A DNA stretch of 37,884 bases, taken from Bacteroidota bacterium. GTDB lineage: Bacteria > Bacteroidota > Bacteroidia > Chitinophagales > Saprospiraceae. The stretch spans positions 1 through 37,884 of the forward strand of contig JAAAOU010000096.1 in NCBI GenBank assembly GCA_009908745.1, written 5' to 3'. Shown here in pieces: positions 3,343-34,171 of this stretch; within the stretch, counting starts at the first letter, position 1; the number at the start of each line of letters is the position of its first letter. The notes under the pieces are model-generated. The model had not been told where the DNA came from, made no database searches, and worked only from the letters and a program-made list of their open reading frames with translations. Position numbers and translations under genes: made by a program.

Positions 3343-4602
3343 TTAAATAATCATACCCGCCCCAACGGTATCATTCGTGCCCTCCTCTACGAAAAGCAAG
3401 CTGCCCGTAATGCGGTTTTTGCGGTAAGCATCGAAGAACAGCGGCTTGGTAGTACGGATAACGACGCGGGCGATGTCATTCATGCCAATTTGCTTGTCTT
3501 CCTCATTGCGGTGCAGGGTATTGATGTCCAGTTTGTACCGTATCTCCTTGACGATACAGCGCACCTCCTGCGTGGTATGCAAAATGGCGTACTTCCCGCG
3601 CAATTGCAGCGGCCGGTCGTGGAACCAGCAGACCATCACCTCCAAGTCCTGTTCTACTTCCGGGTGGTTGTTTTCCCGTACGATCATATCGCCCCGGCTC
3701 AAATCCAGGTCATCCTCCAGCAGCATAGTGACGGACATGGGCGGGTAGGCCTCTTCCAGTTCGCCGTCTAGCGTGTCAATCTTAGCAATCTTGGAAGCAA
3801 AGCCAGAAGGCAGCAGCATCACCTTATCGCCTTTCTTGAACACCCCGCCAGCGATACGGCCGGCATACCCCCGGTAATCGTGGAACTCATCCGTGTTGGG
3901 GCGCAGGACCAACTGCACCGGGAAGCGGCAATCGATGAAGTTATGGTCGCTGCCGATGTGCACGTTTTCCAAGTAGTAGAGTAGGGTAGACCCTTGGTAC
4001 CAAGGTGTCTTATCGGAAGGGTTGACCACATTATCGCCTTTCAGTGCGGAGATGGGGATAAAGTGCACATCGTTGACGTCCAGTTTGTAGGAGAACTCCT
4101 CGAAGTCCTGTTTGATTTTTTCGTATACCTCTTCATTGTAATCCACCAAGTCCATCTTGTTGATGCAGACCACGAGGTGCGGTATTTGCAGCAGCGAGGC
4201 GATGAAGGCGTGCCGGCGGGTTTGCTCCAGCACCCCCTTGCGCGCGTCGATGAGGATCAAAGCCACGTTAGCGGTAGAGGCGCCAGTGACCATGTTGCGG
4301 GTATACTGAATGTGGCCCGGCGTATCCGCGATGATGAATTTACGCTTTGGAGTGTTAAAATACCGGTACGCTACATCTATGGTGATGCCCTGCTCGCGTT
4401 CGGACTTCAGGCCATCGGTCAGCAAAGCCAGGTTGACACCTTCTTCCCCTCGGCGCTCGCTGCTGTCGCGCACGGCATCGTACTGGTCTTCAAAAATGGA
4501 TTTGCTGTCGTATAGCAATCGCCCGATCAAAGTGGATTTGCCGTCGTCTACGCTGCCCGCTGTGGTGAAGCGGAGGAGTTCCATGTTGGTATAGTCAGTC
4601 AT
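3343..4602 (-). CDS. cysN: Sulfate adenylyltransferase subunit 1 (GTPase subunit)
   Basis: CysN is the GTP-hydrolysing subunit that drives CysD to make adenylyl sulfate (APS) from ATP and sulfate. It has 419 residues, a normal length for a CysN without a fused APS kinase. The G1 motif is at residues 15-24 (AGSVDDGKST), the effector/G2 region is in REQGITIDVAYRYF, G3 is DTPGH (93-97) and G4 is NKMD (148-151). The C-terminal half holds the beta-barrel domains of the EF-Tu-like family. It is the last gene of the cys operon and is followed by a terminator, but it is separated from cysD by about 0.7 kb of inserted sequence carrying another gene and two tandem repeats. How CysD and CysN stoichiometry is kept with such an insert is an open question. 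Confidence 0.97.
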   Translation of the reverse strand: MTDYTNMELLRFTTAGSVDDGKSTLIGRLLYDSKSIFEDQYDAVRDSSERRGEEGVNLALLTDGLKSEREQGITIDVAYRYFNTPKRKFIIADTPGHIQYTRNMVTGASTANVALILIDARKGVLEQTRRHAFIASLLQIPHLVVCINKMDLVDYNEEVYEKIKQDFEEFSYKLDVNDVHFIPISALKGDNVVNPSDKTPWYQGSTLLYYLENVHIGSDHNFIDCRFPVQLVLRPNTDEFHDYRGYAGRIAGGVFKKGDKVMLLPSGFASKIAKIDTLDGELEEAYPPMSVTMLLEDDLDLSRGDMIVRENNHPEVEQDLEVMVCWFHDRPLQLRGKYAILHTTQEVRCIVKEIRYKLDINTLHRNEEDKQIGMNDIARVVIRTTKPLFFDAYRKNRITGSLLFVEEGTNDTVGAGMII

Positions 4603-4616
4603 TAGTGGTTAATTTT

Positions 4617-4741
4617 GGAATTCGGAATTCGGAAATAGTAATTCGGAAATGGGAATTCGGAAATGGGAATTGGGAAATGGGAATTCGGAAGTGGGAATTC
4701 GGAAGTGGGAATTCGGAAATGGGAATTCGGAAGTGGGAAAT
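4617..4741. repeat. 14-bp tandem repeat upstream of cysN
   Basis: Seven consecutive 14-base units of the type CGGAAATGGGAATT occupy 4644-4741, differing mainly at one A/G position and one C/G position. More degenerate copies reach back to 4617, just upstream of the cysN start. The plus strand is almost pure purine apart from the TTC or TT. Reading frames through it give a repetitive peptide and are not genes. Together with the repeat at 5220-5330 it brackets the four-helix-bundle gene. Confidence 0.85.
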
Positions 4742-4787
4742 ATTAATTGTCTGATTATCCATCGAGGTCAATTCCATGTATTGGGTT

Positions 4788-5183
4788 TCACAGTTTCTTT
4801 TTGGCCTTCTTTATAAGAGAAACGATGATTGCCGTCAGTTGGTCTGCTTCGCTTTGTAATTCCAAGGCTAAAGCCTCAAGGTTGCTCCACTGCTTTCTAG
4901 CGGCGGAAATGTCTAACCAGAAAGATGACTCATCTGCTTCTTCTTCTGCTATTCCAAGTTTAGCGATATACTCCTTGACAGAGCGGCCTCTGAAGGCAGC
5001 CCGGAAGTTTGCCCCCACAGAAGAAGACGATCGAGTAAGTTGATTAGCGACGTTTCTTCCGGAAGGAGATCCTGGAAGCTGATCGCAAAAGTCCCAAACT
5101 TCTAGTATGAACCGTTTGATCCGTTGGTTCAAACCATACCTTGCTGCTTCTTCCTTTAAAATACTCAAGTCAGTAGCACTCAT
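4788..5183 (-). CDS. Four helix bundle protein (23S rRNA-intervening-sequence protein family)
   Basis: This is a 131-residue helical protein of the TIGR02436/S23 family, related to proteins encoded in 23S rRNA intervening sequences and to the Avd accessory protein of diversity-generating retroelements. Family-typical segments are IKRFILEVWDFCDQLP, NVANQLTRSSSSVGANFRAA, KEYIAKLGIAEEEADESSFW and ADQLTAIIVSLIKKAKKKL. The frame stays open upstream through the tandem repeat, but those residues are repeat-encoded (WKLEGG), so I place the start at the ATG at 5183. The biochemical role of stand-alone members is not established; nucleic-acid binding is suspected from relatives. It is placed between cysD and cysN, where no such gene belongs, and flanked by skewed repeats on both sides, which suggests it arrived as a cassette. 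No reverse transcriptase or variable-repeat target is nearby, so this is not a diversity-generating retroelement. Confidence 0.88.
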   Translation of the reverse strand: MSATDLSILKEEAARYGLNQRIKRFILEVWDFCDQLPGSPSGRNVANQLTRSSSSVGANFRAAFRGRSVKEYIAKLGIAEEEADESSFWLDISAARKQWSNLEALALELQSEADQLTAIIVSLIKKAKKKL

Positions 5184-5219
5184 AATAGTGTATTGATTAT
5201 TGTATTTTTTTATGCCGAA

Positions 5220-5330
5220 AGCTTCCGCCCTCCAACCTCCGCCCTCCAACTTCCAACCTCCGCCCTCCAACTTCCAACTTCCGCCCTCCAACTTCCAACT
5301 TCCAACTTCCAACTTCCGCCCTCCAACTTC
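5220..5330. repeat. Pyrimidine-rich tandem repeat abutting the cysD stop codon
   Basis: The segment is built from short units of the CTTCCAA and CTTCCGCCCTCCAA types, almost pure pyrimidine on the plus strand (purine on the minus, coding strand). It ends exactly at the base before the cysD stop codon (5331-5333) and lies upstream of the four-helix-bundle gene. It is opposite in strand skew to the repeat at 4617-4741, so the two flank the gene in an inverted sense without being the same sequence. Confidence 0.85.
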
Positions 5331-6239
5331 CTAAAAATACCCCTGCTTCTTACGGTCTTCCATCGCCGTCTCCGAGCGCTTGTCATCCGCCCGGCCCCCG
5401 CGCTCCGTCTTGCGGGCTATAGACACCTCTTTAATGATATCCTCGATGGTAGCGGCTTGCGATTCCCATACGCCGGTGCAGGTCATATCGCCTATAGTAC
5501 GGCAGCGGACCATACGCTCTTCTATGGCACCTTCCTCTTCCGGCCGCTTTTGGATATAGTCGCAATCGGCCAGCAGGATGCCATCGCGCTCGAAGACCGG
5601 GCGCTCGTGCGCGAAATAAAGGCTCGGCAACTCCACGCCCTCGGCTGCCAAGTACATCCACACATCGAGTTCCGTCCAGTTGCTGATGGGGAAGACGCGG
5701 AAATGCTCGCCGTAGTTCTTTTTGCCGTTAAACAAATTCCACAGCTCCGGGCGTTGATTCTTGGGGTCCCACTGCCCAAATTCGTCGCGGTGGGAGAAGA
5801 AGCGCTCCTTGGCGCGGGCCTTTTCCTCATCGCGGCGGGCGCCACCCAGCGCGGCGTCGTACTTGCCTTCCTCCAGCGTTTCCAGCAGTACGGAGGTTTG
5901 CAAGTAGTTGCGGCTGGCGTTGTAGCCTTTTTCCTCTGCGATTTTGCCTTCGTCTATAGCGTCCTGCACGGAGCCTACGATGAGCTTCGCCCCGATTTCT
6001 TCCACCAGCTTGTCGCGGTATTCAATGGTTTCGGGAAAGTTATGCCCCGTATCAACGTGCAACAAAGGGAAAGGGATGCGGGCCGGGTAAAAGGCTTTTC
6101 TCGCCAAGTGGACCATGAGAATGGAGTCTTTGCCCCCTGAGAACATGAGTACGGGGCGCTCAAACTGCGCCGCGACTTCCCGCAGGACAAAGATCGATTC
6201 AGATTCCAGCTCTTTCAGGTGATTCAGATGGTAGCTCAT
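5331..6239 (-). CDS. cysD: Sulfate adenylyltransferase subunit 2
   Basis: CysD is the catalytic N-type ATP-pyrophosphatase subunit of ATP sulfurylase; it joins sulfate to AMP to make APS, with CysN as partner. The PP-loop SGGKDS is in VLMFSGGKDSILMVHLARKA, followed by FPLLHVDTGHNFPE, the GGARRDEEKARAKER segment and RVFPISNWTELDVW. The C-terminus has MRCRTIGDMTCTG-like residues (RTIGDMTCTGVWES) and ends in KKQGYF, all standard. I chose the ATG at 6239 (MSYHLNHLKELE), which matches the usual CysD N-terminus; an ATG at 6272 would add eleven residues. It lies 41 bases after cysC. Its stop codon is directly joined to a tandem repeat. Confidence 0.97.
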   Translation of the reverse strand: MSYHLNHLKELESESIFVLREVAAQFERPVLMFSGGKDSILMVHLARKAFYPARIPFPLLHVDTGHNFPETIEYRDKLVEEIGAKLIVGSVQDAIDEGKIAEEKGYNASRNYLQTSVLLETLEEGKYDAALGGARRDEEKARAKERFFSHRDEFGQWDPKNQRPELWNLFNGKKNYGEHFRVFPISNWTELDVWMYLAAEGVELPSLYFAHERPVFERDGILLADCDYIQKRPEEEGAIEERMVRCRTIGDMTCTGVWESQAATIEDIIKEVSIARKTERGGRADDKRSETAMEDRKKQGYF

Positions 6240-6280
6240 ATCAATTGGAGGATGCTTGTTTAGCCAAACCATGACCGCTG

Positions 6281-6880
6281 CTATTCGTAGCGGATGATTG
6301 GCGCGATGAAATCAAAGACTTGGTCTACGCAGGCCTCTAAAGCCTGCTCGTGCGTACGTATTTCCAAAGCGGGGCGCAGCGGCGGTTCGTAGGGCGCGTC
6401 AATGCCCGTAAACCCCTTTATCGCTCCGGCTCTAGCTTTTTGGTATAGCCCTTTCACGTCCCGCTCTTCACAGACTTCCAGCGGCGCATTGACGAATATC
6501 TCCAGAAAGTCTTCGGACCCGATGATGCCGCGCGCCATCGCCCGTATCTGCCGGGTCGGGCTAATGAAGGAGTTGAGCGTGATAATACCGCTGTTGAGGT
6601 ACAAACGCGCCACTTCTGCAATCCGGCGGATATTTTCACGGCGGTCCTGCGGGCTGAACCCTAGGTTGTTGTTGATGCCGCTGCGAATATTGTCGCCGTC
6701 GAGCACTTGGGCGAAGTAGCCCTCGTTGTAAAGCCGTCTTTCCAGATGCTCCGCAACGGTGCTTTTCCCGGAACCCGATAGGCCCGTAAACCAAAGCACT
6801 TTGCTCCTTTGCCCAAGGCGCCGTTCCCGGTCACCGCGCTGTAGCAACCGGTCAAATATAGGATGGATATTGTCCGCCAA
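6281..6880 (-). CDS. cysC: Adenylyl-sulfate kinase (APS kinase)
   Basis: CysC phosphorylates APS to PAPS. It has 199 residues. The Walker A motif GLSGSGKST is at 33-41, DGDN at 61-64, the ISPTR phosphate-site segment at 106-110, and the lid-type segment GLYQKARAGAIKGFTGID at about 144-161. The start is a TTG at 6880: it gives the family-typical NIHPIFDRLLQR opening, and the ATG a few bases upstream (6887) is out of frame. It is the first gene of the cysC-cysD-cysN order and is divergent from the gene at 7067, so the 186-base gap holds the operon's promoter, although I see no clear box. No PAPS reductase, sulfite reductase, cysQ or sulfotransferase is in the window, so whether PAPS feeds cysteine synthesis or sulfation cannot be decided here. 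Confidence 0.96.
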   Translation of the reverse strand: MADNIHPIFDRLLQRGDRERRLGQRSKVLWFTGLSGSGKSTVAEHLERRLYNEGYFAQVLDGDNIRSGINNNLGFSPQDRRENIRRIAEVARLYLNSGIITLNSFISPTRQIRAMARGIIGSEDFLEIFVNAPLEVCEERDVKGLYQKARAGAIKGFTGIDAPYEPPLRPALEIRTHEQALEACVDQVFDFIAPIIRYE

Positions 6881-14305: not shown

Positions 14306-17300
14306 ATGGTACGTTATTTACTGTTAATTTTTGCACTCACGGTCTCGGGTGTGGCTGCTTTCGGGCAGACCTCGCTGCAGGGCAAAGTGGTGGACGATAC
14401 CGGAGAACCCGTTATCTTCGGCTCCGTCGCCCTGTACAAAAACGAGGTGCTCATTACGGGTGCAGAGACCGACTTTGACGGCAACTATGCCTTCAACGAG
14501 CTTGACCCCGGTACGTATGACCTTGAAGTGAGCTACGTTGGCTTGACGACTAAGCGCGTGAACGGTATTCAGGTGTTTGCCGGCAAAGCCAACATTTTGA
14601 ACGTAGAAATGACTTCCGACGCCGTCACACTCGAAGGGGTCGAAGTCGTTGACTACAAAGTCCCGCTCGTCGAAGCGGACAACACTACTCAGGGCGGTAC
14701 GCTGACTAGCGAGCAGATCAAGAACCTCCCTACTCGTAACATTAACGCGTTGGCCGCTCAGACTGCGGGTATCGCCTCATCGGACGAAGGGGACGCCATC
14801 GCTATCCGAGGTTCCCGGAGCAACGCTACGGACTATTACGTAGACGGTATCCGTGTACGCGGTAACTTGGTGCCTGAATCCGAGATCGAGCAGCTGCAAG
14901 TCATCACCGGCGGTATTGAAGCACAGTACGGTGACGTGACCGGTGGTGTGATCTCTATTACCACCAAGGGGCCATCTAGGAATTGGTCCGGTGGCGTGGA
15001 AGTGGAGACCTCCGAATTCACCGACCCTTACAACCAGCGCTTGATCGGATTCAACCTCTCCGGGCCGCTGATTAAAAAAACGAGTGACGATGGCAAGCGT
15101 GAAAAGTCTATCCTCGGTTTTCGCCTGGCTGGCCGTATCACCGATCAACTCGACGACGACCCGCCGGCGACCAATATCTTCCAAGTCAAGCCAGAAGTAC
15201 TCAACGAGCTGCAGGCGAACCCAGTAACCGATAGAGATGGTGTCGACTTTACGGCGGCGGATTTCATCGATAATGGGGATGTTAATGTGTTGGACATCAA
15301 CCCGAATGAAAACTTTTTGCGTTATGCGGGTACGGGCAAAATTGACGCCCGCCTCAGTGACAATATTGATATTACGCTTTCCGGCCAAGTCAACCTGTCG
15401 GAGAATACCTTCACGCCCGGTGGCTGGCAGCTGATGAACACGCAGAACAACCCGACTTCGTTCAGCGACAACTACCGTGGTAACTTCCGCTTCCGCCACC
15501 GTCTAGGCCGCGGCGGGCAGCAAGGGGAAGACGGGCAGACGAAAGGCTCCCTGATTCAAAATGCATCTTATACCCTGCAATTTGGCTATGAGCGCCGCGA
15601 CACAAGACTCTACGACCCCCGCCACGGCGACAACCTTTTTGACTACGGCTACATCGGGGAGTTTGTGCAGGAATGGGTGCCGAGCTGGGAAACCCGGCTA
15701 GTGTTTGATGATGCGGGTACACCAATCGATGTGATCGGCGTACACACGGACTACACGCCCGTGTTCCGCGATTACGATCCGAACCAGGATATCAACCCCG
15801 TACTAGCCAACTACAATAATACTTTCCTTAACGACGAAGGGGGATACGACTTGCCAAGCAATATCCCTAGCATGAATACCTTCAACGGGGATGTCAACGA
15901 TATATTCAGCAACTCTTGGGGGCTGCATACGAATGTAGGCTCTGTCTACAACTTGAACCGTACTTTCGCGCAGGATGTCTACACCCTGCAGGCTCGTACT
16001 TCTTTCGACCTCGTACCTGGCGGCTCTGACAAAGGCCGGCACAGCATACAGATGGGCGTTTGGTACGAGGAGCGGATCAACCGCAACTACGATATCAACC
16101 CGCGTGCGCTTTGGCTGCTAGCTCGACAGCTTGCTAACGAGCACATTCAGGGGGTTCCCTTTGGCGACGACAACCTGCCGATCAGCGACACGCTCGATAT
16201 TGTGCCCGTCACAACCGTTAACGGCGATACCGTTACCAACGGCTTCACCGGGGAGCCGCTCTTTGGCGCCTTGCACGACGTAGAGATCGCACCGGGCGAA
16301 GGTGCCCGTTTCTACGAACAAGTGCGCCAAGTCGCCGATGTGGGGCTGCGCGAGTTCGTCAACGTCGATGCGTTGAGCCCCGATCAGTTGAGCCTCGATA
16401 TGTTTTCCGCCCGAGAATTGACGGACTTCGTGAATAACGGCTCGCCTATTCTCGACTACTATGGTTATACCTACTTGGGGGAAGTTTTCAATGGTACTTT
16501 TGATGATTTCTTTACCGCCCGGGACGAGAACAACGTGCGCACCTTCCCGGTAGCGCCTTTCCGCCCTATTTACGGTGCGGCATTTATACAGGATAAGTTT
16601 ACGTTTAAAGACATCATCTTCCGTCTTGGTGTGCGGGTAGACCGCTATGATGCCAACACCAGCGTATTAAAGGATAACTACTCCTTGTACGATATTCAGG
16701 GCGCCGGAGATTACCACGCGGAATTTGGTGGCGAAGCACCGGGGAACATCGGTGATGACTTTAAGGTATACGCCGACGAAACCGGAGAGGAAGTTGTGGC
16801 TTACCGTAACGAAGACGAGTGGTTCCAGCCCAACGGCAACCCGGTTAACAACCCCTCCTTGATTTTCCAAGGCGGTACGGTCAACCCTGTTTACGCCAAC
16901 CCCAACGCCCGTGACAACGACAACTACATCAAAGAGCCGGGCTTTGACACGGATGCTTCTTTCGAAGACTACGAAGTGCAGGTAAATGTGATGCCACGTT
17001 TGGCCTTCTCTTTCCCGATCTCGGATGAAGCCAACTTCTTTGCGCACTACGATATACTTGTGCAGCGTCCGCCTTCTAATTCTATCGCCACGGCACTGGA
17101 TTACTTCTACTTCTACGACCGGCCCAATCTGGACAAGAACAACCCGAATCTGCGGCCGGAGCGTACGATCGACTATGAGGTAGGTTTCCAGCAGAAGCTG
17201 AGCAACTCTTCTGCCCTGAAAATCTCTGCTTACTACAAGGAGATGCGGGACATGATTCAGCTGCGCACCTTCTTCCCGGTACCGGTCATCGGCCAGTACA

Positions 17301-28027: not shown

Positions 28028-29266
28028 ATGGCTATGTCGAAAAGCATCATTTACAGTCTGATTGGGGCTGTGATTTCAATAGCGCTTGCGGCCTGCGGCA
28101 GTGAAGCGGACGACGCTACATCGCAGCCGGATTTAAAGGATTTAAGCTGGGAAGAAATCGAAGCCCAAGCACAAGGCACCACCCTCACCCACATGATGTG
28201 GACCGGAGACCCGCTCATCAACGATTACATGAACAATTATGTCAAGCCCGCGGTCCAAAAGCGCTACGGCATCGACCTGAATATCGTCAGCGGGCAAGGG
28301 GCAACTATCGTGCAATCTATGATGGCGGAGCTGCAGGCCGGCAAGCAGGAGAGCGAGGTGGATATGATGTGGATCAACGGAGAGACCTTTTACCAGTTGC
28401 GGCAAATCGAAGCGTTGCACGGTCCTTGGACAGATCGCCTTCCCAACGCGCAGTATATCGACTTCGATAACCCCTTCATCGGTGTGGACTTTCAGCAGCC
28501 GGTGGATGGGTACGAGTGCCCTTGGGGCAATGTGCAGATGGCGATCATCTATGACACCCTGCGCACGCCCAATCCCCCGCAGAACCGGTCGGAACTGCTG
28601 GCCTATGCTAAAGCAAACCCCGGCACTTTTACCATTGACACCCGCTTTACCGGTCTGACTTTCCTAAAGGCTTTGCTGATCGACATCGCCGGGGGGCAGG
28701 AGGTGCTAGCCGGCGACTTTGACGAAGCCAAGTACAAGCGTTACGCCCCGCAGCTGTGGGATTACCTGCGTAAGCTCAAGCCTTACCTGTGGAAGGAAGG
28801 GCAGTCCTTTCCGGAAGGCGTGGCGCCTATGCATCAGATGTTTGCCAACGGCGAGCTGCACTTCAGCATGAGCAACAACGACTGCGAAGTCGACAACAAG
28901 GTGATGCAAGGGCTATTCCCGGAAAGTACCCGCGCTTATGTCTGGGAGCTGGGCACTATTCAAAACTCTCATTACTTGGGCATCGCGAAGCATTCTGCCA
29001 ACAAAGCGGCTGCTATGGTCGTCGCCAACTTTATGATTTCCCCTGAGGCGCAATACCGCAAAATGGACCCGGCCGTTTGGGGAGACGGCACCGTGCTGGA
29101 CCTGGACCAACTCCCGGCGGAATGGGCGGAGAAGTTTCGCAACCTGCCCAACCGAAAATACGCTCCCGACCGGCAAGCTATACAGAATCGCGCACTGATG
29201 GAATTAGCGCCCGAGTATATGATCCGCCTGGCCGAAGATTTCCGTAAAGAAATAATAGAGGGTTGA
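28028..29266 (+). CDS. YnjB-like ABC transporter substrate-binding lipoprotein
   Basis: This is an extracytoplasmic solute-binding protein of 412 residues. A lipoprotein signal (SLIGAVISIALAACGS, lipobox Cys about 23) is followed by a two-lobe binding fold. The sequence follows E. coli YnjB (COG4134) in its key stretches: MWTGDPLINDYMNNYVKPAV, YGIDLNIVSGQGATIVQSM, VDMMWINGETFYQLRQIEAL, GPWTDRLPNAQYIDFDNPF, then TRFTGLTFLKALLIDIAGG and NDCEVDNKV. The ligand of YnjB-type proteins has not been settled; thiamine, polyamine and similar solutes are neighbours in the superfamily. An in-frame ATG at 28034 is an alternative start. It heads the operon with two permeases, an ATPase and a radical SAM gene, and overlaps the first permease as TGATG. 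Confidence 0.9.
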   Translation: MAMSKSIIYSLIGAVISIALAACGSEADDATSQPDLKDLSWEEIEAQAQGTTLTHMMWTGDPLINDYMNNYVKPAVQKRYGIDLNIVSGQGATIVQSMMAELQAGKQESEVDMMWINGETFYQLRQIEALHGPWTDRLPNAQYIDFDNPFIGVDFQQPVDGYECPWGNVQMAIIYDTLRTPNPPQNRSELLAYAKANPGTFTIDTRFTGLTFLKALLIDIAGGQEVLAGDFDEAKYKRYAPQLWDYLRKLKPYLWKEGQSFPEGVAPMHQMFANGELHFSMSNNDCEVDNKVMQGLFPESTRAYVWELGTIQNSHYLGIAKHSANKAAAMVVANFMISPEAQYRKMDPAVWGDGTVLDLDQLPAEWAEKFRNLPNRKYAPDRQAIQNRALMELAPEYMIRLAEDFRKEIIEG

Positions 29267-30123
29267 TGCAAGCGAATGGGGCCGCCCAATTTGGCCGTTT
29301 TCTCTTTGTTTTGCTGTCTGCCGTGCCGATAGTAGCCGGCGTGGGCTATGCGCTGCTGTATAGCCTCGGGCTGACGGGGGTGATGGCAGAGGGTATGACA
29401 GGGGCCCACTGGCGGGAAGTGCTCAGGGATGCGGCTTTCTGGCGGACGATCGGCTTTAGCTTGTACGTGGCGCTGGTGAGTATTTTGATCGCCCTGGCAA
29501 TTGCCCTGGCTTTGGTGCTGCGGTCGCCCCGTACTTTTACCAAAGGCAGCCTGTCTTATATGATTTACCTGCCGCTGAGTATCCCGGCTATTGTGATGGC
29601 GTTTTTCATCTTCCAATTGCTGGGCAAAGGCGGCTGGCTTTCAAGGCTGGCGCATCAGCTGGGGATGATCAGCGCGCTGGGCCAATTTCCAGATTGGGTG
29701 AATGACAACTATGGGATAGGCATTATCGTAGCGCATGTGGTCATGGCGGCACCGTTTTTCACCATATTCTTTGCCAATTTGTACGAAAACGAGCGCTTGG
29801 GGGATTATTTGCACTTGGCGACAACGCTCGGGGCAGGGCGGCGGCAGCGCATCTTCCGTGTAGGGGTGCCCATACTGCTGCGCCGGGGGCTGGCCACGGT
29901 CTTTTTGTACTTTATGTTCGTCATGGGCAGTTACGAGATTCCGCTCTTGCTGGGCAGCCAATCGGTGCAGATGGTCTCCATCCGGACGATACAGCGGCTG
30001 CAGCGCTACAACCTCGGTGACATCCCCGAAGCCTATGCCATCAGCGTAGCGTATACGGTCTTGGTCGTGGTCTTGCTGAGTGCTTTGCTATGGTTCAACC
30101 GCCGTCAAATGAGACCGTCATGA
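29266..30123 (+). CDS. ABC transporter permease, first subunit (YnjC N-terminal half-like)
   Basis: This is an inner-membrane permease of about 285 residues with six hydrophobic segments and the binding-protein-dependent permease loop (DYLHLATTLGAGRRQRIFRVGVPILLRRG), the EAA-type contact site for the ATPase. Start ATG 29266 overlaps the preceding TGA by one base. In E. coli the single protein YnjC carries two such domains in one chain; here the two halves are separate genes, this one matching the first. It overlaps the next permease as ATGA, which points to coupled translation and a one-to-one ratio. Confidence 0.9.
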   Translation: MQANGAAQFGRFLFVLLSAVPIVAGVGYALLYSLGLTGVMAEGMTGAHWREVLRDAAFWRTIGFSLYVALVSILIALAIALALVLRSPRTFTKGSLSYMIYLPLSIPAIVMAFFIFQLLGKGGWLSRLAHQLGMISALGQFPDWVNDNYGIGIIVAHVVMAAPFFTIFFANLYENERLGDYLHLATTLGAGRRQRIFRVGVPILLRRGLATVFLYFMFVMGSYEIPLLLGSQSVQMVSIRTIQRLQRYNLGDIPEAYAISVAYTVLVVVLLSALLWFNRRQMRPS

Positions 30124-30875
30124 GCCGAACCGTAAAAGCCATGCTGGTGGGGCTGATCTTGTTCCCCTTCGCCTTTCTGCTGATGCTGTCGGTGGGGCGC
30201 CAATGGCCCTATCCGGCTTTGTTCCCGCAGCAGTGGTCCTTGGCCAATTGGGCGATGGTGTGGGGTGGGAGTGAGGGCCTGAGCAACAGTGTGGCGATTT
30301 CGGTGTTGCTATCTACAAGCGTCGCGGCACTATCCACTGGCACGAGCTTTTGGGTCAGCCGCCACATCGCTTACCACCCCAAGCGGGAGGCTTGGCTGAG
30401 CATGGCCTATTTGCCGTACGTTTTTGCGCCGGTGATTTTGGCGGCCTGCTTGCAGTTCTTTTTCATACTGGCAGGGCTATACGGTACTTTTGGCGGGGTG
30501 TTGGTGGCACAGTTGTTTATCACTTTCCCCTACGGCGTGATCTTTTTCAGCAGTTTCTGGAATGAGCGCCTGCGGAATATGGAGCAACTGGTCAAAACGC
30601 TAGGGGGCAACAGCCGGCAAGCGTACGCCAAGGTGTTGATCCCGGTAGCACGCGGAGCGCTGGCCACTTGCTTTTTTCAGCTTTTTCTCATCTCTTGGTT
30701 CGAGTACGGCCTGACGAACCTTATCGGGGTGGGGAAGGTGCCAACGCTGACTATACGCGTCTTCCAGTATGTGAACGAGGCGAATCTATTCTTGGCGGCC
30801 TTGGCGAGCTGCTTGCTGGTTTTTCCGCCGCTCTTGCTGCTTTGGGTGAATCGGCGGGTGGTTTTTAAGGGTTGA
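30120..30875 (+). CDS. ABC transporter permease, second subunit (YnjC C-terminal half-like)
   Basis: This is an inner-membrane permease of 251 residues with about six hydrophobic segments. Its cytoplasmic EAA-type loop is NMEQLVKTLGGNSRQAYAKVLIPVARGALA. The ATG at 30120 (MSRTVKAMLVGL) is preferred over an in-frame ATG at 30090, because it forms the ATGA overlap with the upstream permease and gives a normal first membrane segment. The stop codon TGA at 30873-30875 is itself the first part of a G-rich tandem repeat, so the true C-terminus may have been trimmed or reset when the repeat arose (VVFKG then stop). Confidence 0.89.
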   Translation: MSRTVKAMLVGLILFPFAFLLMLSVGRQWPYPALFPQQWSLANWAMVWGGSEGLSNSVAISVLLSTSVAALSTGTSFWVSRHIAYHPKREAWLSMAYLPYVFAPVILAACLQFFFILAGLYGTFGGVLVAQLFITFPYGVIFFSSFWNERLRNMEQLVKTLGGNSRQAYAKVLIPVARGALATCFFQLFLISWFEYGLTNLIGVGKVPTLTIRVFQYVNEANLFLAALASCLLVFPPLLLLWVNRRVVFKG

Positions 30876-31095
30876 AAGGTTGGAAGGGTTGTAGGGTTGG
30901 AAGGTTGGAAGGGTTGTAGGGTTGGAAAGTTGGAAGGGTTGTAGGGTTGGAAAGTTGGAAGGGTTGTAGGGTTGGAAAGTTGGAAGGGTTGTAGGGTTGG
31001 AAAGTTGGAAGGGTTGTGAAGGTTGGAAGGTTGAAAGGGTTGAAGGGTTGGAAGGTTGAAGGGTTGGAAGGTTGTAGGGTTGGAAAGTTGGAAGA
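30871..31095. repeat. G-rich 25-bp tandem repeat inside the ABC operon
   Basis: Five 25-base units occupy 30879-31003; each is made of GTTGGAA, GGGTTGTA and GGGTTGGAAA blocks and the copies are almost identical. More irregular copies of the GGTTGGAA and GGGTTGAA blocks continue to 31095. The coding strand has no C in the units, so runs of GG and GGG spaced by 2-5 bases are repeated and could form two-layer G-quadruplexes in DNA or mRNA. The array starts at the stop codon of the second permease. Long reading frames on the opposite strand are repeat artefacts. Confidence 0.9.
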
Positions 31096-31101
31096 CACAT
31101 A

Positions 31102-31148
31102 AGACTTGACAAGTTTTCCGAGTGGATAAGCCCGCCCTTGTCAAGTCT
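31102..31148. repeat. 12-bp perfect inverted repeat at the end of the tandem array
   Basis: AGACTTGACAAG (31102-31113) and CTTGTCAAGTCT (31137-31148) are perfect inverted repeats with a 23-base spacer. They lie between the tandem array and the ATPase gene start (31168). No T-run follows. It could be a hairpin that terminates or stabilises the transcript, or the end of a small mobile repeat. Confidence 0.65.
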
Positions 31149-31167
31149 AATAAAACATAAAAAGCAA

Positions 31168-31896
31168 ATGCTCCAAACCAAGAATATCAGCAAGGTCTTT
31201 CAGGGCGAGCAAGTCTTGGAGGGCCTAAGCTTCCGGATCAACGAGCATGAGATGCTCAGCATACTCGGCCGCTCGGGGAGTGGCAAAACCACCTTGCTGA
31301 AGGTGCTGGCGGGCTTGGAAACTGCCGATAGGGGGCAAGTGATTCTGGAAGGCCAAGACATTACTACTGTCCCTGCTAATCGACGGGGGATAGTTTATCT
31401 ATATCAAGAGGCACTGCTGTTCCCCCACCTCAATGTGTTTGAGAATATCGCCTTCGGCCTGCGGTTGCGCAAGCAGCCTGAGTCGGTGATCAAGGACAAC
31501 GTCTACGCCCTACTCGAGCGGCTGGAACTACCAGAGCAGGCGCAGAAAATGCCCGAGCAGCTTTCCGGCGGGCAGCGGCAGCGGGTGGCTTTCGGCCGGG
31601 CGCTGGTGATTGAGCCGCGGGTGCTGCTGCTGGACGAGCCGTTCGGCGCACTGGATAGCGAGACGCGGACAAATATGCAGGATTTGCTCAAAGGTGTGGC
31701 GAAAGATTACGGGCTGACCGCTATATTCGTCACCCACGACCTCAAAGAAGCCATGCTGATGGGCGATCGTATGGGCATGATGCAAAAGGGTAAACTGAAC
31801 ATTTACGACAAGCAAGCCGATTTTATCGCCGACAAAGCGACTGGGGTATTGGAGGAAGCCCAGTTTTGGATCAACCTCCAGGATTTAAAAAAATAG
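31168..31896 (+). CDS. ABC transporter ATP-binding protein (YnjD-like)
   Basis: This is the ATPase subunit of the importer, 242 residues. Walker A is GRSGSGKTTLL (about 30-40), the Q-loop lies in YLYQEALLFPHLNVFENIAF, the signature is LSGGQRQRVAFGRAL, Walker B is VLLLDEPFGALD, and the H-switch is in IFVTHDLKEAML. The tail is short (KLNIYDKQADFIADKATGVLEEAQFWINLQ), without the C-terminal regulatory domain of MalK/PotA types. ATG at 31168 (MLQTKNISKVFQGEQ) is chosen; upstream in-frame codons lie in the inverted repeat. It is separated from the permease genes by 292 bases of repeats and followed after five bases by the radical SAM gene. Confidence 0.94.
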   Translation: MLQTKNISKVFQGEQVLEGLSFRINEHEMLSILGRSGSGKTTLLKVLAGLETADRGQVILEGQDITTVPANRRGIVYLYQEALLFPHLNVFENIAFGLRLRKQPESVIKDNVYALLERLELPEQAQKMPEQLSGGQRQRVAFGRALVIEPRVLLLDEPFGALDSETRTNMQDLLKGVAKDYGLTAIFVTHDLKEAMLMGDRMGMMQKGKLNIYDKQADFIADKATGVLEEAQFWINLQDLKK

Positions 31897-31901
31897 ACGA
31901 C

Positions 31902-32855
31902 ATGAAAGCAGATTTCAACCACTGCGAATCTTTATACTGGGTCTTCACCCAACTTTGCAACGACGAATGCGACCACTGCTACAACAACTCCGGCCCCTTT
32001 GGCGAGCGCATCAGCGAAGAGGAGTGTATGATGATCATTGACAATATGCCGGAGCGGATCGATCGCCTGATTTTGTCGGGCGGGGAGCCCATTGCCGACC
32101 GTAAGAAACTCTACAATATACTGGATGCCCTGCGGGAGCCTTACACGGATCAGGGCACGCAGATTATGCTGCAGACCAATGGTGATCTGTTGAATGAAGA
32201 AATCCTGGACACGCTGATCGAAAAAGGCGTCACCCGCTTTGACATCGCGAGCATTGACCGTTTTCACAAAAAGGCGGGTGCGCGCCTGATGGAGCTTGCC
32301 GAGCTGTTTGACTCGCGCGGCGTCAATGGCGACGACAAAGACCCGCTGGTCGATAAGCAGAACTACCTGCACGGCCACCCGCTAAGCTGGGGGGCCTGGG
32401 GCGCTACGGACGATATGTGGCTCGGCGGCAACTGGGCCCGCGGCCGGGCGATGGAAAAAGACATCTGGAAGCGCGACCCGGAGCATAACTTCTGTGCTAT
32501 ACTTTCCGGTGCCCGCAACTTCCTCGGCGGCTACGAGGATATCCCGCAGGAAATCAGCATTCAGTTGTGGAAGATTAACCCTTGCTGCCCGGGTACGCAA
32601 TTCCCGATGGGCGACGCCCGGCGCGAAAAGGTCGTCGATGTACTGGAGCGAATGGCGGAGCACCCCGTCTTCCAAAAGCTGAACGAGGGCGACCCTTGGC
32701 GCATGGGCGAGCACTTGGGCGTGACGGAGGCGGAAGCCAAAGCCCGTACTCGTGAGCTGGAAAACATTTGCTTGTACTGCGACGAGTTTTTCAACAACCA
32801 CCTGCAAGACTTGAACCCGGATACGTTTGTGGAATTGCCGGTGGTGAAGGCGTAG
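31902..32855 (+). CDS. Radical SAM protein linked to the YnjBCD-like transporter
   Basis: This is an enzyme of 317 residues. The radical SAM cluster motif CX3CX2C is at C19, C23 and C26 (QLCNDECDHCY), followed by the SAM-contacting GGEP at 60-63 and the MLQTNGDLL strand. The second half has five more cysteines: C198, the pair C228-C229 (KINPCCPGTQ), and C290-X2-C293 (NICLYCDEFF), which could hold an auxiliary iron-sulfur cluster as in SPASM/twitch enzymes, although the spacing is not the standard SPASM pattern. An unusual segment rich in W and G (LSWGAWGATDDMWLGGNWAR, 161-180) lies between. I do not recognise the exact family. The five-base gap after the ATPase gene means co-transcription. 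No small precursor peptide gene is seen beside it. The reaction is unknown. Confidence 0.9.
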   Translation: MKADFNHCESLYWVFTQLCNDECDHCYNNSGPFGERISEEECMMIIDNMPERIDRLILSGGEPIADRKKLYNILDALREPYTDQGTQIMLQTNGDLLNEEILDTLIEKGVTRFDIASIDRFHKKAGARLMELAELFDSRGVNGDDKDPLVDKQNYLHGHPLSWGAWGATDDMWLGGNWARGRAMEKDIWKRDPEHNFCAILSGARNFLGGYEDIPQEISIQLWKINPCCPGTQFPMGDARREKVVDVLERMAEHPVFQKLNEGDPWRMGEHLGVTEAEAKARTRELENICLYCDEFFNNHLQDLNPDTFVELPVVKA

Positions 32856-32859
32856 GGTG

Positions 32860-33031
32860 TACCGGCGGCTTCAGCTGCTTAGTTATAGTAACCCTGATGG
32901 AACTGATTGGGCTGATTGTACTGATTTGTGCAGACGCTACGGTCTGCACGGCAAGCACATCAGCCTAGCGCAGCCACGAAGTGGGCGCCAAGATCAGTCG
33001 GATCAGTGTTCCCATACTGTTGGCGCTGAAA
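32860..33031. repeat. Left copy of a 172-bp direct repeat with three hairpins
   Basis: This segment is repeated in the same orientation at 33876-34047 with only scattered differences. Each copy contains GGCGGC-TTCA followed by its (here wobble-paired) complement, the perfect hairpin GTGCAGAC/GTCTGCAC around GCTACG or its equivalent, and a longer-range inverted pair GCGCCAA/TTGGCGC. It starts five bases after the radical SAM stop codon. No coding sequence is supported. Confidence 0.85.
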
Positions 33032-33064: not shown

Positions 33065-33800
33065 CCCCTGACGAAGCTGTGCTTGTCAGGGTCCTACGGG
33101 CACGAATGTACTCTGCCGAAGCTGCGCTTGTACGACGCATTTTATTGCCACGAATTTCACGAAGGGGCACGAATGCGAGCGTGTCGTGTATGGGTTTTGG
33201 CATAGCCAAAGCAGACTTCGTGTCCCTTCGAGTCATTAGTGGCTAACCTTACGTAGCGCCTGCCTAGCGTATTGTGTCGCCCCTGACGAAGCTGCGCTTG
33301 TCGGAGCCCTGCGGGCACGAATGCGAGCGTGTCGTGTGTGGGTTTTGGCCTGGCCAAAACGGCTTCGTGTCCCTTCGTGCCCTTAGTGGCTAACCTTACG
33401 CCGCGCTTGCCTAGCGTATTGCATCGCCCCTGAAGAAGCTGCGCTTGTCATGGCCCTGCGGGCACGAATGCGAGCGTGTCGTGTGTGGGGTTTTGGCATG
33501 GCCAAAACAGACTTCGTGTCCCTTCGTGCCCTTAGTAGCTAACCTTACATAGCGCCTGCCTAGCGTATTTTGTCGCCCCTGACGAAGCTGTGCTTGTCAG
33601 GGCCCTACGGGCACGAATGCCCTCCGACGAAGCCAAGGCTTGTCGGGGTCCTACGGACACGAATTTTCTCGGACGAAGCTGCGCTTGTCGGAGCCCTGCG
33701 GGCACGAATGCGAGCGTGTCGTGTGTGGGGTTTTGGCATGGCCAAAACGGTCTTCGTGTCCCTTCGTGCCCTTGGTGGCTAACCTTACGCTGCGCTTGCC
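33065..33800. repeat. Four tandem units of a structured intergenic repeat
   Basis: Units begin at 33065, 33280, 33427 and 33576, each opening with CCCCTGA(C/A)GAAGCTG. They share GGGCACGAATGCGAGCGTGT, a hairpin GTTTTGGC/GCCAAAAC with a 3-base loop (33194-33212, 33342-33360, 33490-33508, 33730-33748), CTTCGTGTCCCTTCG and GGCTAACCTTACG. Unit lengths are about 215, 147, 149 and 225 bases. The first copy of the hairpin has a G-U pair, so pairing is kept although bases differ. Reading frames inside are repeat artefacts. Confidence 0.85.
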
Positions 33801-33875
33801 AGGGTAATTTATTGAAGAAGCAAAACCTGTCAGAGCCCTAAATGCCCCTCGCTACGCGGTGGATAGAGCATGCAG

Positions 33876-34047
33876 TACCGGCGGCTTCAGCCGCCCGGAG
33901 AATAGTAACCCTGATGGGACTGATTGGGCTGATTGTACTGATTTGTGCAGACGCTACGGTCTGCACGGCAAGCACGTCAGCCTAGCGCAGCCACGGAGTG
34001 GGCGCCAAAATCAGTCGGATCAGTGTTCCCATACTGTTGGCGCTGAA
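33876..34047. repeat. Right copy of the 172-bp direct repeat
   Basis: This is a direct-oriented copy of 32860-33031, roughly nine bases in ten identical. The first hairpin is perfect here (GGCGGC-TTCA-GCCGCC), whereas the left copy reads GCTGCT, which still pairs by wobble. It closes the composite repeat region; 34048-34171 up to the next gene shows nothing recognisable. Confidence 0.85.
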
Positions 34048-34171
34048 ACCAGCTAAAACCGCCCGGACATTACGGTACGCACGGCGGCGTAGAGTCAACA
34101 AGACAACCATAATGACAAGCCCGTAGCAGCAGACTTGCCCCAAAATTTGTAAATTGCCCAAAAAACCAGCC

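Follow-up and report, generated by a model that had tools for sequence, protein, structure and literature searches.

A YnjBCD-type importer and a radical SAM protein form a conserved unit in Bacteroidota, a candidate system for uptake and conversion of a modified riboside

We analyzed a stretch of 37,884 nucleotides (the window) from a member of the Saprospiraceae (Bacteroidota; GenBank contig JAAAOU010000096.1) and focus here on five genes of its forward strand, which encode a YnjB-type solute-binding protein (SBP), two permeases, an ATP-binding cassette (ABC) ATPase and a radical S-adenosylmethionine (SAM) protein. The window is contig C404 of a 5.39-Mb genome in 541 contigs, whose closest named relatives belong to Phaeodactylibacter, a genus placed by NCBI in the Bacteroidota, order Saprospirales. 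The unit formed by these genes is conserved and widespread across Bacteroidota and is not described in the literature that we searched. We tentatively read it as an import-and-conversion unit whose solute would probably be an unusual 5-modified ribonucleoside or riboside, with arsenosugar-type organoarsenicals as leading candidates.

Results

The radical SAM gene is linked to ynjB across genomes

A scan of named genomes returned 241 relatives of the radical SAM protein, of which the best 80 were used (the 80 radical SAM loci; L numbers denote gene loci and G numbers genomes that were compared). By their titles these 80 are Bacteroidota, except for L067, which is unplaced, and L082, which is labelled Thalassovita. 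In 68 of the 80 loci a ynjB gene precedes the radical SAM gene on the same strand, and among loci with at least 7.5 kb of upstream sequence this is so in 61 of 68; the 68 of 80 are far beyond chance. ATPase and radical SAM matches are at most 150 bases apart in 61 of the 71 loci that hold both, and relatives that are only about 30% identical also adjoin a ynjB (L028, L029).

Co-occurrence was counted in a phylum sample of 395 genomes, using strong relatives of the radical SAM protein (12 weak matches to the core alone were left out) and YnjB matches above the NF008633 cut-off (one match below it was left out). The radical SAM protein occurred in 9 genomes, YnjB in 21 and both in 7 (Fisher p = 1.4e-8). 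The corresponding numbers for 140 genomes of the window's family were 11, 15 and 9 (p = 5.8e-9), so that two of the 11 radical SAM genomes are without YnjB; these and the following Fisher p-values on co-occurrence ignore the relatedness of the genomes. The divergence of the radical SAM protein correlates with that of YnjB (r 0.72, 51 shared rows), a correlation that shared species history alone could give. In G395 ynjB lies on another contig than the radical SAM gene, and three relatives stand apart from any ynjB (L025, L026, L183), either near a GH32-like gene (noted by eye) or preceding a DUF2064-like gene and a receptor. Judging from gene order and co-occurrence, we take the functional link between the radical SAM protein and YnjBCD to be real. 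The preliminary description of this DNA had proposed such a link, and homologues of the radical SAM protein are indeed usually found beside ynjB rather than away from it.

A slot shared with putative nucleoside-cleaving genes

The slot after the ATPase was examined in Bacteroidota loci that carry the transporter without the radical SAM gene (L052-L065, from 14 such genomes). Eight of these 14 loci hold a methylthioadenosine-phosphorylase-like gene and four a nucleoside-hydrolase-like gene, together 12 of 14; in the other two (L056, L059) the sequence ends a few kilobases past the transporter. A methylthioribose-kinase-like gene is found in nine of the 14. None of these three reference groups is ever the best label in the 80 radical SAM loci, and for phosphorylase- or hydrolase-like genes the comparison of 12 of 14 with 0 of 80 gives a Fisher p of 2e-13. 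Purine nucleoside phosphorylases of another type are present in nine of the 80 loci. The slot examples that were scanned scored well below the NCBIfam cut-offs (105 of 275, 82 of 382 and 74-120 of 275 bits), as would be expected of specialised paralogues that have diverged from the true families. We conclude from these arrangements that the radical SAM protein would stand in for enzymes by which a ribonucleoside-like compound is opened. For the class of the solute this slot swap is our strongest clue, and it suggests import and conversion of a modified ribonucleoside or riboside as the probable function of the unit.

The usual unit includes a TonB-dependent receptor

The usual gene order in the 80 loci starts with a DUF2064-like gene (55 loci) and a TonB-dependent receptor (64), followed by YnjB (68), the two permeases (69 and 70), the ATPase (71) and the radical SAM gene (80). 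In 24 loci there is also a pair of genes for proteins of about 206 and 217 amino acids (e.g. L091:7932-9198), two of which were tested and gave no Pfam or NCBIfam match. Receptor, DUF2064-like gene and pair are all present in the Phaeodactylibacter loci L068 and L069, and receptor and DUF2064-like gene in L067; these three loci are the nearest relatives of the window. A remnant of the pair, consisting of the start of the first gene and the end of the second, was seen by eye just before ynjB in L067 (L067:6060-6250).

Receptor, DUF2064-like gene and pair were not found in the window, where one receptor reference matches weakly (26%) at 14657-15139. The whole genome gave no receptor match at E 1e-40 in a search that had no positive control, and the one TIGR04282-type match of the genome lies elsewhere, on contig C532; neither the receptor nor the DUF2064-like gene was found in this genome. 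As receptor, DUF2064-like gene and pair were not found in the window, it is probably a reduced form of a larger system, of which it would hold the inner-membrane and enzymatic parts.

The DUF2064-like gene appears in other settings as well. A comparison by eye of the DUF2064-like gene L103:2623-3306 with a true TIGR04282 gene (L103:11453-12052) showed that the DUF2064-like protein is missing the GKxKTRL stretch of the true one and that it matches the profile only in the profile's later part. TIGR04282-type genes lie between ynjB and permease 1 in L073, L074 and L193 (G524), the G524 copy scoring 185.7 bits against a cut-off of 134. In L178, L180, L181 and L182 the DUF2064-like gene was also seen by eye before SusC- and SusD-looking genes. 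It may serve a second importer of a different kind too. In L178 a weak sodium/solute symporter match is followed by a pair of genes for AhpD and the arsenosugar enzyme ArsS (see below), and similar symporter reading frames were noted by eye in L180 and L182.

Arsenosugar genes surround the module in some relatives

One paper describes ArsS as the radical SAM enzyme of arsenosugar biosynthesis by which arsenic is adenosylated (PMC12159101), and another describes it as acting with ArsM in the first steps of this pathway in Synechocystis (PMC8552651). Its product would therefore be a 5'-modified nucleoside, in keeping with the slot argument. The module of Aquimarina algicola, A. aggregata and Ulvibacter litoralis (L103, L135, L137) has ArsS and its AhpD-like partner (TIGR04169) on one side and a block of rhodanese, TIGR04282, phosphorylase and TIGR04283 genes on the other. 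Hidden Markov model (HMM) scores come from the A. algicola cluster only (ArsS 442 bits against a cut-off of 300, ArsM 583 against 400, TIGR04169 198 against 120 and TIGR04282 221 against 134), the A. aggregata and Ulvibacter clusters being assigned by their similarity to that of A. algicola. Both Aquimarina clusters gave a match to the arsenosugar ArsM. Eight of the 80 radical SAM loci have rhodanese, TIGR04282 and phosphorylase genes together with the module, and three of the 80 have ArsS within 10 kb, against 0.17 expected by chance.

Methyltransferase genes of the arsenite type provide a further context. In L118, from an assembled genome, the module is followed by two such genes, which score 221 and 368 bits (cut-off 263) and flank an arsR-family regulator, and by an aquaporin gene. 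In L112 and L124 an ArsM-like gene lies between ATPase and radical SAM gene, with scores of 181 and 190 bits that fall short of the cut-off. ArsM-like references match five of the 80 loci; of these L112, L118 and L124 were counted, and L119 and L138 (34-35%, other strand) were left out. No ArsS/ArsM cluster location was found for the window or for most of the 80 loci. In the literature that we searched on YnjBCD, arsenosugars and DUF2064/TIGR04282, we found nothing that connects YnjBCD with arsenic or with any radical SAM enzyme.

We also compared the distribution of ArsS with that of the importer. ArsS is present in 94 of the 140 genomes of the window's family but in none of the 15 YnjB genomes (p = 9e-9) and none of the 11 radical SAM genomes (p = 2e-6). 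Within the window's genus, G000 has YnjB and the radical SAM protein, whereas G488 has ArsS and neither of the two. ArsS also occurs in 155 genomes of the 395-genome sample and in none of its 21 YnjB genomes (p = 3e-5). A general rule of ArsS or YnjB, never both, was rejected because it holds only in these two samples and ArsS occurs in 21 of the 80 named radical SAM genomes; a make-or-import trade-off would therefore be lineage-specific at most. Counts of ArsM and TIGR04282 were made in 44 genomes chosen by hand from the 140. Arsenosugar ArsM exceeded its cut-off in none of 17 YnjB or radical SAM genomes, in five of 15 ArsS genomes and in none of 12 genomes with neither, which is uninformative on the substrate; TIGR04282 did so in 14 of 17, 15 of 15 and 7 of 12, respectively.

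The radical SAM protein appears to belong to an unnamed family

The window's protein exceeds the cut-off of PF04055 and keeps the CX3CX2C motif, as is characteristic of the radical SAM superfamily. Its cysteines were counted in an alignment of 61 rows: Cys42, Cys198, Cys228 and Cys229 are conserved in all 61 and Cys290 and Cys293 in 60. Except for Cys42, the conserved cysteines are also invariant in a nine-sequence alignment that includes relatives 29-30% identical. Among the best 25 of the 37 NCBIfam families matched, no equivalog reached its cut-off, the best match being heme b synthase AhbD with 48.3 bits against a cut-off of 500. A family prediction from HMMs, as suggested in the preliminary description, thus assigned no named family, and the protein appears by these comparisons to represent a new one. 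The identity with ArsS was ruled out, as TIGR04167 (cut-off 300 bits) is missing among the best 25 of the 37 families matched, the lowest of these 25 scoring 24 bits.

The AlphaFold2 model of the protein (pLDDT 86.8) is nearest in fold to EpeE (Z 18.1, 255 residues, 3.6 A), whose entries contain [4Fe-4S] clusters, followed by BtrN (Z 15.9, 220 residues, 3.3 A) and by viperins with Z about 14. BtrN is a sugar-alcohol dehydrogenase that acts on an aminocyclitol. Together with these fold matches, the five conserved C-terminal cysteines may indicate a putative auxiliary cluster of the twitch/SPASM type. EpeE (YydG) and BtrN resemble the protein in predicted fold and in a second set of conserved cysteines, but are only about 17% identical to it and provide no equivalog or family assignment. 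A profile of the protein reached, among PDB chains, only BtrN, YydG and one radical SAM core entry, over the core alone. We read the protein, from its cysteines and its model, as a putative twitch-type enzyme that would take hydrogen from a small substrate.

The binding protein fold is compatible with many ligands

The SBP gave no match to PDB chains by sequence at E 1e-5, and for it as for the radical SAM protein an assignment to solved structures by sequence was rejected. In a fold search with its AlphaFold2 model (pLDDT 92.3), all 1,000 of the 1,000 aligned chains had Z of at least 8; the best rows were sugar-binding proteins, with polyamine and sulphoquinovosyl-glycerol binders within about 3 Z units of them. 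Because sugar, polyamine and other binders lie so close in Z, the fold gives no ligand. YnjB is classed as a polyamine-type binding protein in a review table (PMC9397018), and the YnjBCD group is named and termed uncharacterized in the consulted part of another paper (PMC9207381). The consulted parts of the YnjBCD literature contained no firmly assigned solute, in agreement with the preliminary description on this point. Polyamine import by YnjB is kept as an unlikely option, as no polyamine gene was noticed in the neighbourhoods, which were inspected without a search aimed at one.

Outside Bacteroidota, YnjBCD has other neighbours

Outside Bacteroidota we considered E. coli and plasmid records, 75 of which have a YnjB match; 14 of these were opened, chosen by ourselves for variety, and several are closely related. 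A CDP-alcohol phosphatidyltransferase of the YnjF type lies beside ynjBCD or at most two genes away in ten of the 14, from Pseudomonadota, Bacillota and Fusobacteriota (L196-L198, L200, L202-L204, L206-L208), and is not annotated there in the other four. TVP38 or FAD-dependent oxidoreductase genes are often near plasmid ynjBCD as well. In Peptoclostridium, ynjB is preceded by a nucleoside hydrolase gene, the product of which is 26% identical to a Bacteroidota one. In the plasmid collection nothing matched the radical SAM protein at E 1e-15. Conversely, the Bacteroidota loci that were searched held no match at E 1e-6 to proteins of the CDP-alcohol phosphatidyltransferase, YdjX, YnjA and TVP38 types. 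The window gave no match at E 1e-4 to relatives of YdjX, YnjA, YnjF, TVP38 or CDP-alcohol phosphatidyltransferase; YnjE was not searched for.

The ydjXYZ-ynjABCD(E) operon of E. coli encodes a YnjB-family ABC importer, as does the window, and in E. coli K-12 ynjF lies near ynjBCD. Unlike the Bacteroidota unit, it has a fused permease (YnjC) in place of the window's two separate ones and no adjoining radical SAM or receptor gene. E. coli YnjA (AhpD/CMD-type) and YnjE (a sulphurtransferase) are loose counterparts of the TIGR04169 protein and the NF045521 rhodanese in the Aquimarina cluster. Their membership in the arsenosugar-associated AhpD and rhodanese families was rejected, since YnjA matches TIGR04169 over 36 residues and YnjE matches by its rhodanese segments only. 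We do not regard the E. coli-type neighbourhood as essential to the transporter family. YnjBCD appears to be a carrier whose conversion enzymes can be exchanged, and its solutes are possibly related but not identical.

The five-gene locus in the window

The window shows the YnjBCD importer arrangement of binding protein, permeases and ATPase in one strand order (Table 1). SBP and permease 1 genes overlap by TGATG (29264-29268, with the permease ATG at 29266) and the two permease genes by ATGA (30120-30123); five bases separate the ATPase stop (31896) from the ATG of the radical SAM gene (31902). Three of the four junctions are therefore tight and the fourth is not, as permease 2 and ATPase are 292 bases apart. 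This gap is mostly filled by an array of the GGTTGGAA type, of which the window has 11 exact copies there and the corresponding gap of L067-L069 has none. The nucleotide match of these three relatives to the window stops on either side of the array, and since their corresponding gap also contains no GGTTGGAA, the array seems to have been inserted locally. The preliminary description had reported the five genes, the CX3CX2C motif, the common strand and the three tight junctions, all of which we read in the sequence. Its tight operon leaves out the repeat-filled gap, and its five-gene unit is to be extended, as the usual unit also has the TonB-dependent receptor and the DUF2064-like gene. We infer a common transcript for the window's five genes.

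Table 1. Position of the features of the five-gene locus in the window.
Feature	Position	Strand	Evidence
YnjB-type solute-binding lipoprotein (SBP), 412 aa	28028..29266	+	NF008633, 404.4 bits (cut-off 203); SBP_bac_8
Lipobox Cys23 of SBP	28094-28096	+	sequence
Permease 1	29266..30123	+	PF00528, 46.2 bits (cut-off 26.4)
Permease 2	30120..30875	+	PF00528, 29.8 bits (cut-off 26.4)
25-base tandem array, GGTTGGAA	30868..31094	.	Tandem Repeats Finder; 8.7 copies, 91% match
ABC ATPase, 242 aa from ATG	31168..31896	+	PF00005, 123.6 bits (cut-off 25)
Radical SAM protein, 317 aa	31902..32855	+	PF04055, 55.9 bits (cut-off 29.5)
CX3CX2C motif CNDECDHC (Cys19, Cys23, Cys26)	31956..31979	+	Cys in 60/60 aligned rows at each position
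Putative auxiliary-cluster cysteines	32493..32780	+	Cys198 32493-32495; Cys228-Cys229 32583-32588; Cys290 32769-32771; Cys293 32778-32780

Further repeats lie 3' of the radical SAM gene. At 33165-33711 there are intergenic units of 147 bases (3.1 copies) and 46 bases (2.9 copies), and a stretch near 32858-33030 was seen by eye to be repeated near 33875-34050. On the minus strand, putative sulphate-activation genes (cysN-, cysD- and cysC-like reading frames, noted by eye) occupy positions 3343-6880.

Discussion

We propose that the solute would be carried through the outer membrane by the TonB-dependent receptor, which is encoded upstream in most related loci, would be taken up by YnjB as a small molecule in the periplasm and would be brought across the inner membrane by the two permeases and the ATPase. 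The cytosolic radical SAM protein would then act on it via a 5'-deoxyadenosyl radical, aided by a second, twitch-type iron-sulphur cluster. The leading candidate solutes would be arsenosugar-type organoarsenicals, for instance the ArsS product or an arsenosugar derived from it. The preliminary description had likewise envisaged a transport-and-conversion unit, a notion that gains from the replacement of the radical SAM gene by nucleoside-cleaving genes, while the action of the enzyme on the imported compound is something that we, too, infer. It had named no substrate; the gene neighbours narrow the candidates to a ribonucleoside-like or alcohol-like class, with arsenosugar-type arsenicals as putative front-runners.

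Several observations weigh against an import-and-conversion unit for a modified riboside. As 14 of the 21 YnjB genomes in the 395-genome sample are without the radical SAM protein, this enzyme is one of several alternative partners, a point on which the preliminary description needs correcting; conversely, two of the nine radical SAM genomes are without YnjB. The slot after the ATPase is empty in G516. Seven of the 80 radical SAM loci carry a purine nucleoside phosphorylase that is weakly matched by the phosphorylase-like references (22-31% identity), and in the six with a listed protein start the weak match falls on that phosphorylase or on an unlabelled protein. The SBP model is equally like sugar, polyamine and other binding proteins, and the CDP-alcohol phosphatidyltransferase partner outside Bacteroidota points to an alcohol and not to a nucleoside. 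As for arsenic, ArsS is nearby in only three of the 80 loci, two of them from Aquimarina, and searches of the window's genome found neither ArsS (E 1e-60) nor anything that matches the arsenosugar ArsM model (E 1e-15). The 21 named radical SAM genomes with ArsS comprise 13 of 19 Hymenobacter and 8 of 61 others.

The more specific proposal that receptor, YnjBCD and radical SAM protein serve to take up and break down or re-use arsenosugar-type organoarsenicals, and that the enzyme would cleave or rearrange the arsenic-bearing ribose compound via hydrogen abstraction from the ribose, is one that we consider doubtful. Plain salvage of a 5'-modified nucleoside such as methylthioadenosine, 5'-deoxyadenosine or a similar compound, without any arsenic, is rather unlikely too. 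It would account for the phosphorylase-, hydrolase- and methylthioribose-kinase-like genes of the slot region and for the nucleoside hydrolase adjoining ynjB in Peptoclostridium, and arsenosugar genes would be neighbours because those pathways also handle nucleosides; yet it does not account for the ArsR-ArsM genes of L118 or for the ArsS clusters that enclose the module, and the scanned enzymes score much too low for membership in the true methylthioadenosine and methylthioribose families.

A different solute, an alcohol or polyol for a phospholipid head group that the Bacteroidota enzyme would dehydrogenate or epimerise in a BtrN-like manner, would fit the phosphatidyltransferase genes near ynjBCD in ten plasmid records and in E. 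coli K-12 as well as the second place of BtrN in the fold search. We judge it improbable: the window and the Bacteroidota loci gave no phosphatidyltransferase match (E 1e-4 and E 1e-6, respectively), nucleoside-cleaving genes occupy the slot in Bacteroidota, and the 14 plasmid records were self-chosen and include close relatives. The nearest fold, EpeE, is a peptide epimerase, and many of the weak NCBIfam matches to the radical SAM core are peptide maturases, which would suit a modifier of the receptor, of YnjB or of a small peptide. Such a role seems more improbable still, as the enzyme swaps with nucleoside-cleaving enzymes and the five bases between ATPase and radical SAM gene leave no room for a precursor-peptide gene in the window, where short reading frames elsewhere were not systematically searched. 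That the radical SAM gene is read with the ABC genes but unrelated to them is hardly credible. The radical SAM genomes without YnjB (two of nine and two of 11), the stray relatives in L025, L026 and L183 and the separate contigs of G395 would suit chance neighbours, but the same order recurs in 68 of 80 loci from many genera, and the divergences of the two proteins are correlated, with the reservation on shared species history made above.

The import-and-conversion unit that we favour shares the logic of receptor, binding protein and ABC importer with systems of the BtuB-BtuCDF type, in which a TonB receptor is combined with an ABC importer for a vitamin or metallophore. It differs from them by an ABC part of the polyamine/thiamine/sugar binding-protein type and by the enzyme within the unit. 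The arsenosugar cluster (ArsM, ArsS, TIGR04282, TIGR04283) encloses the module in two Aquimarina and one Ulvibacter, whereas the search of the window's genome returned no ArsS, and ArsS and the unit occur apart in the window's family and together in 21 of the 80 named radical SAM genomes.

The neighbourhoods yield a short list of candidate ligands for YnjBCD and an apparently new family of radical SAM proteins whose assay partner is obvious. Should the arsenosugar interpretation prove right, the unit would supply the uptake genes for arsenosugars and thereby a bacterial scavenging arm of the arsenosugar cycle.

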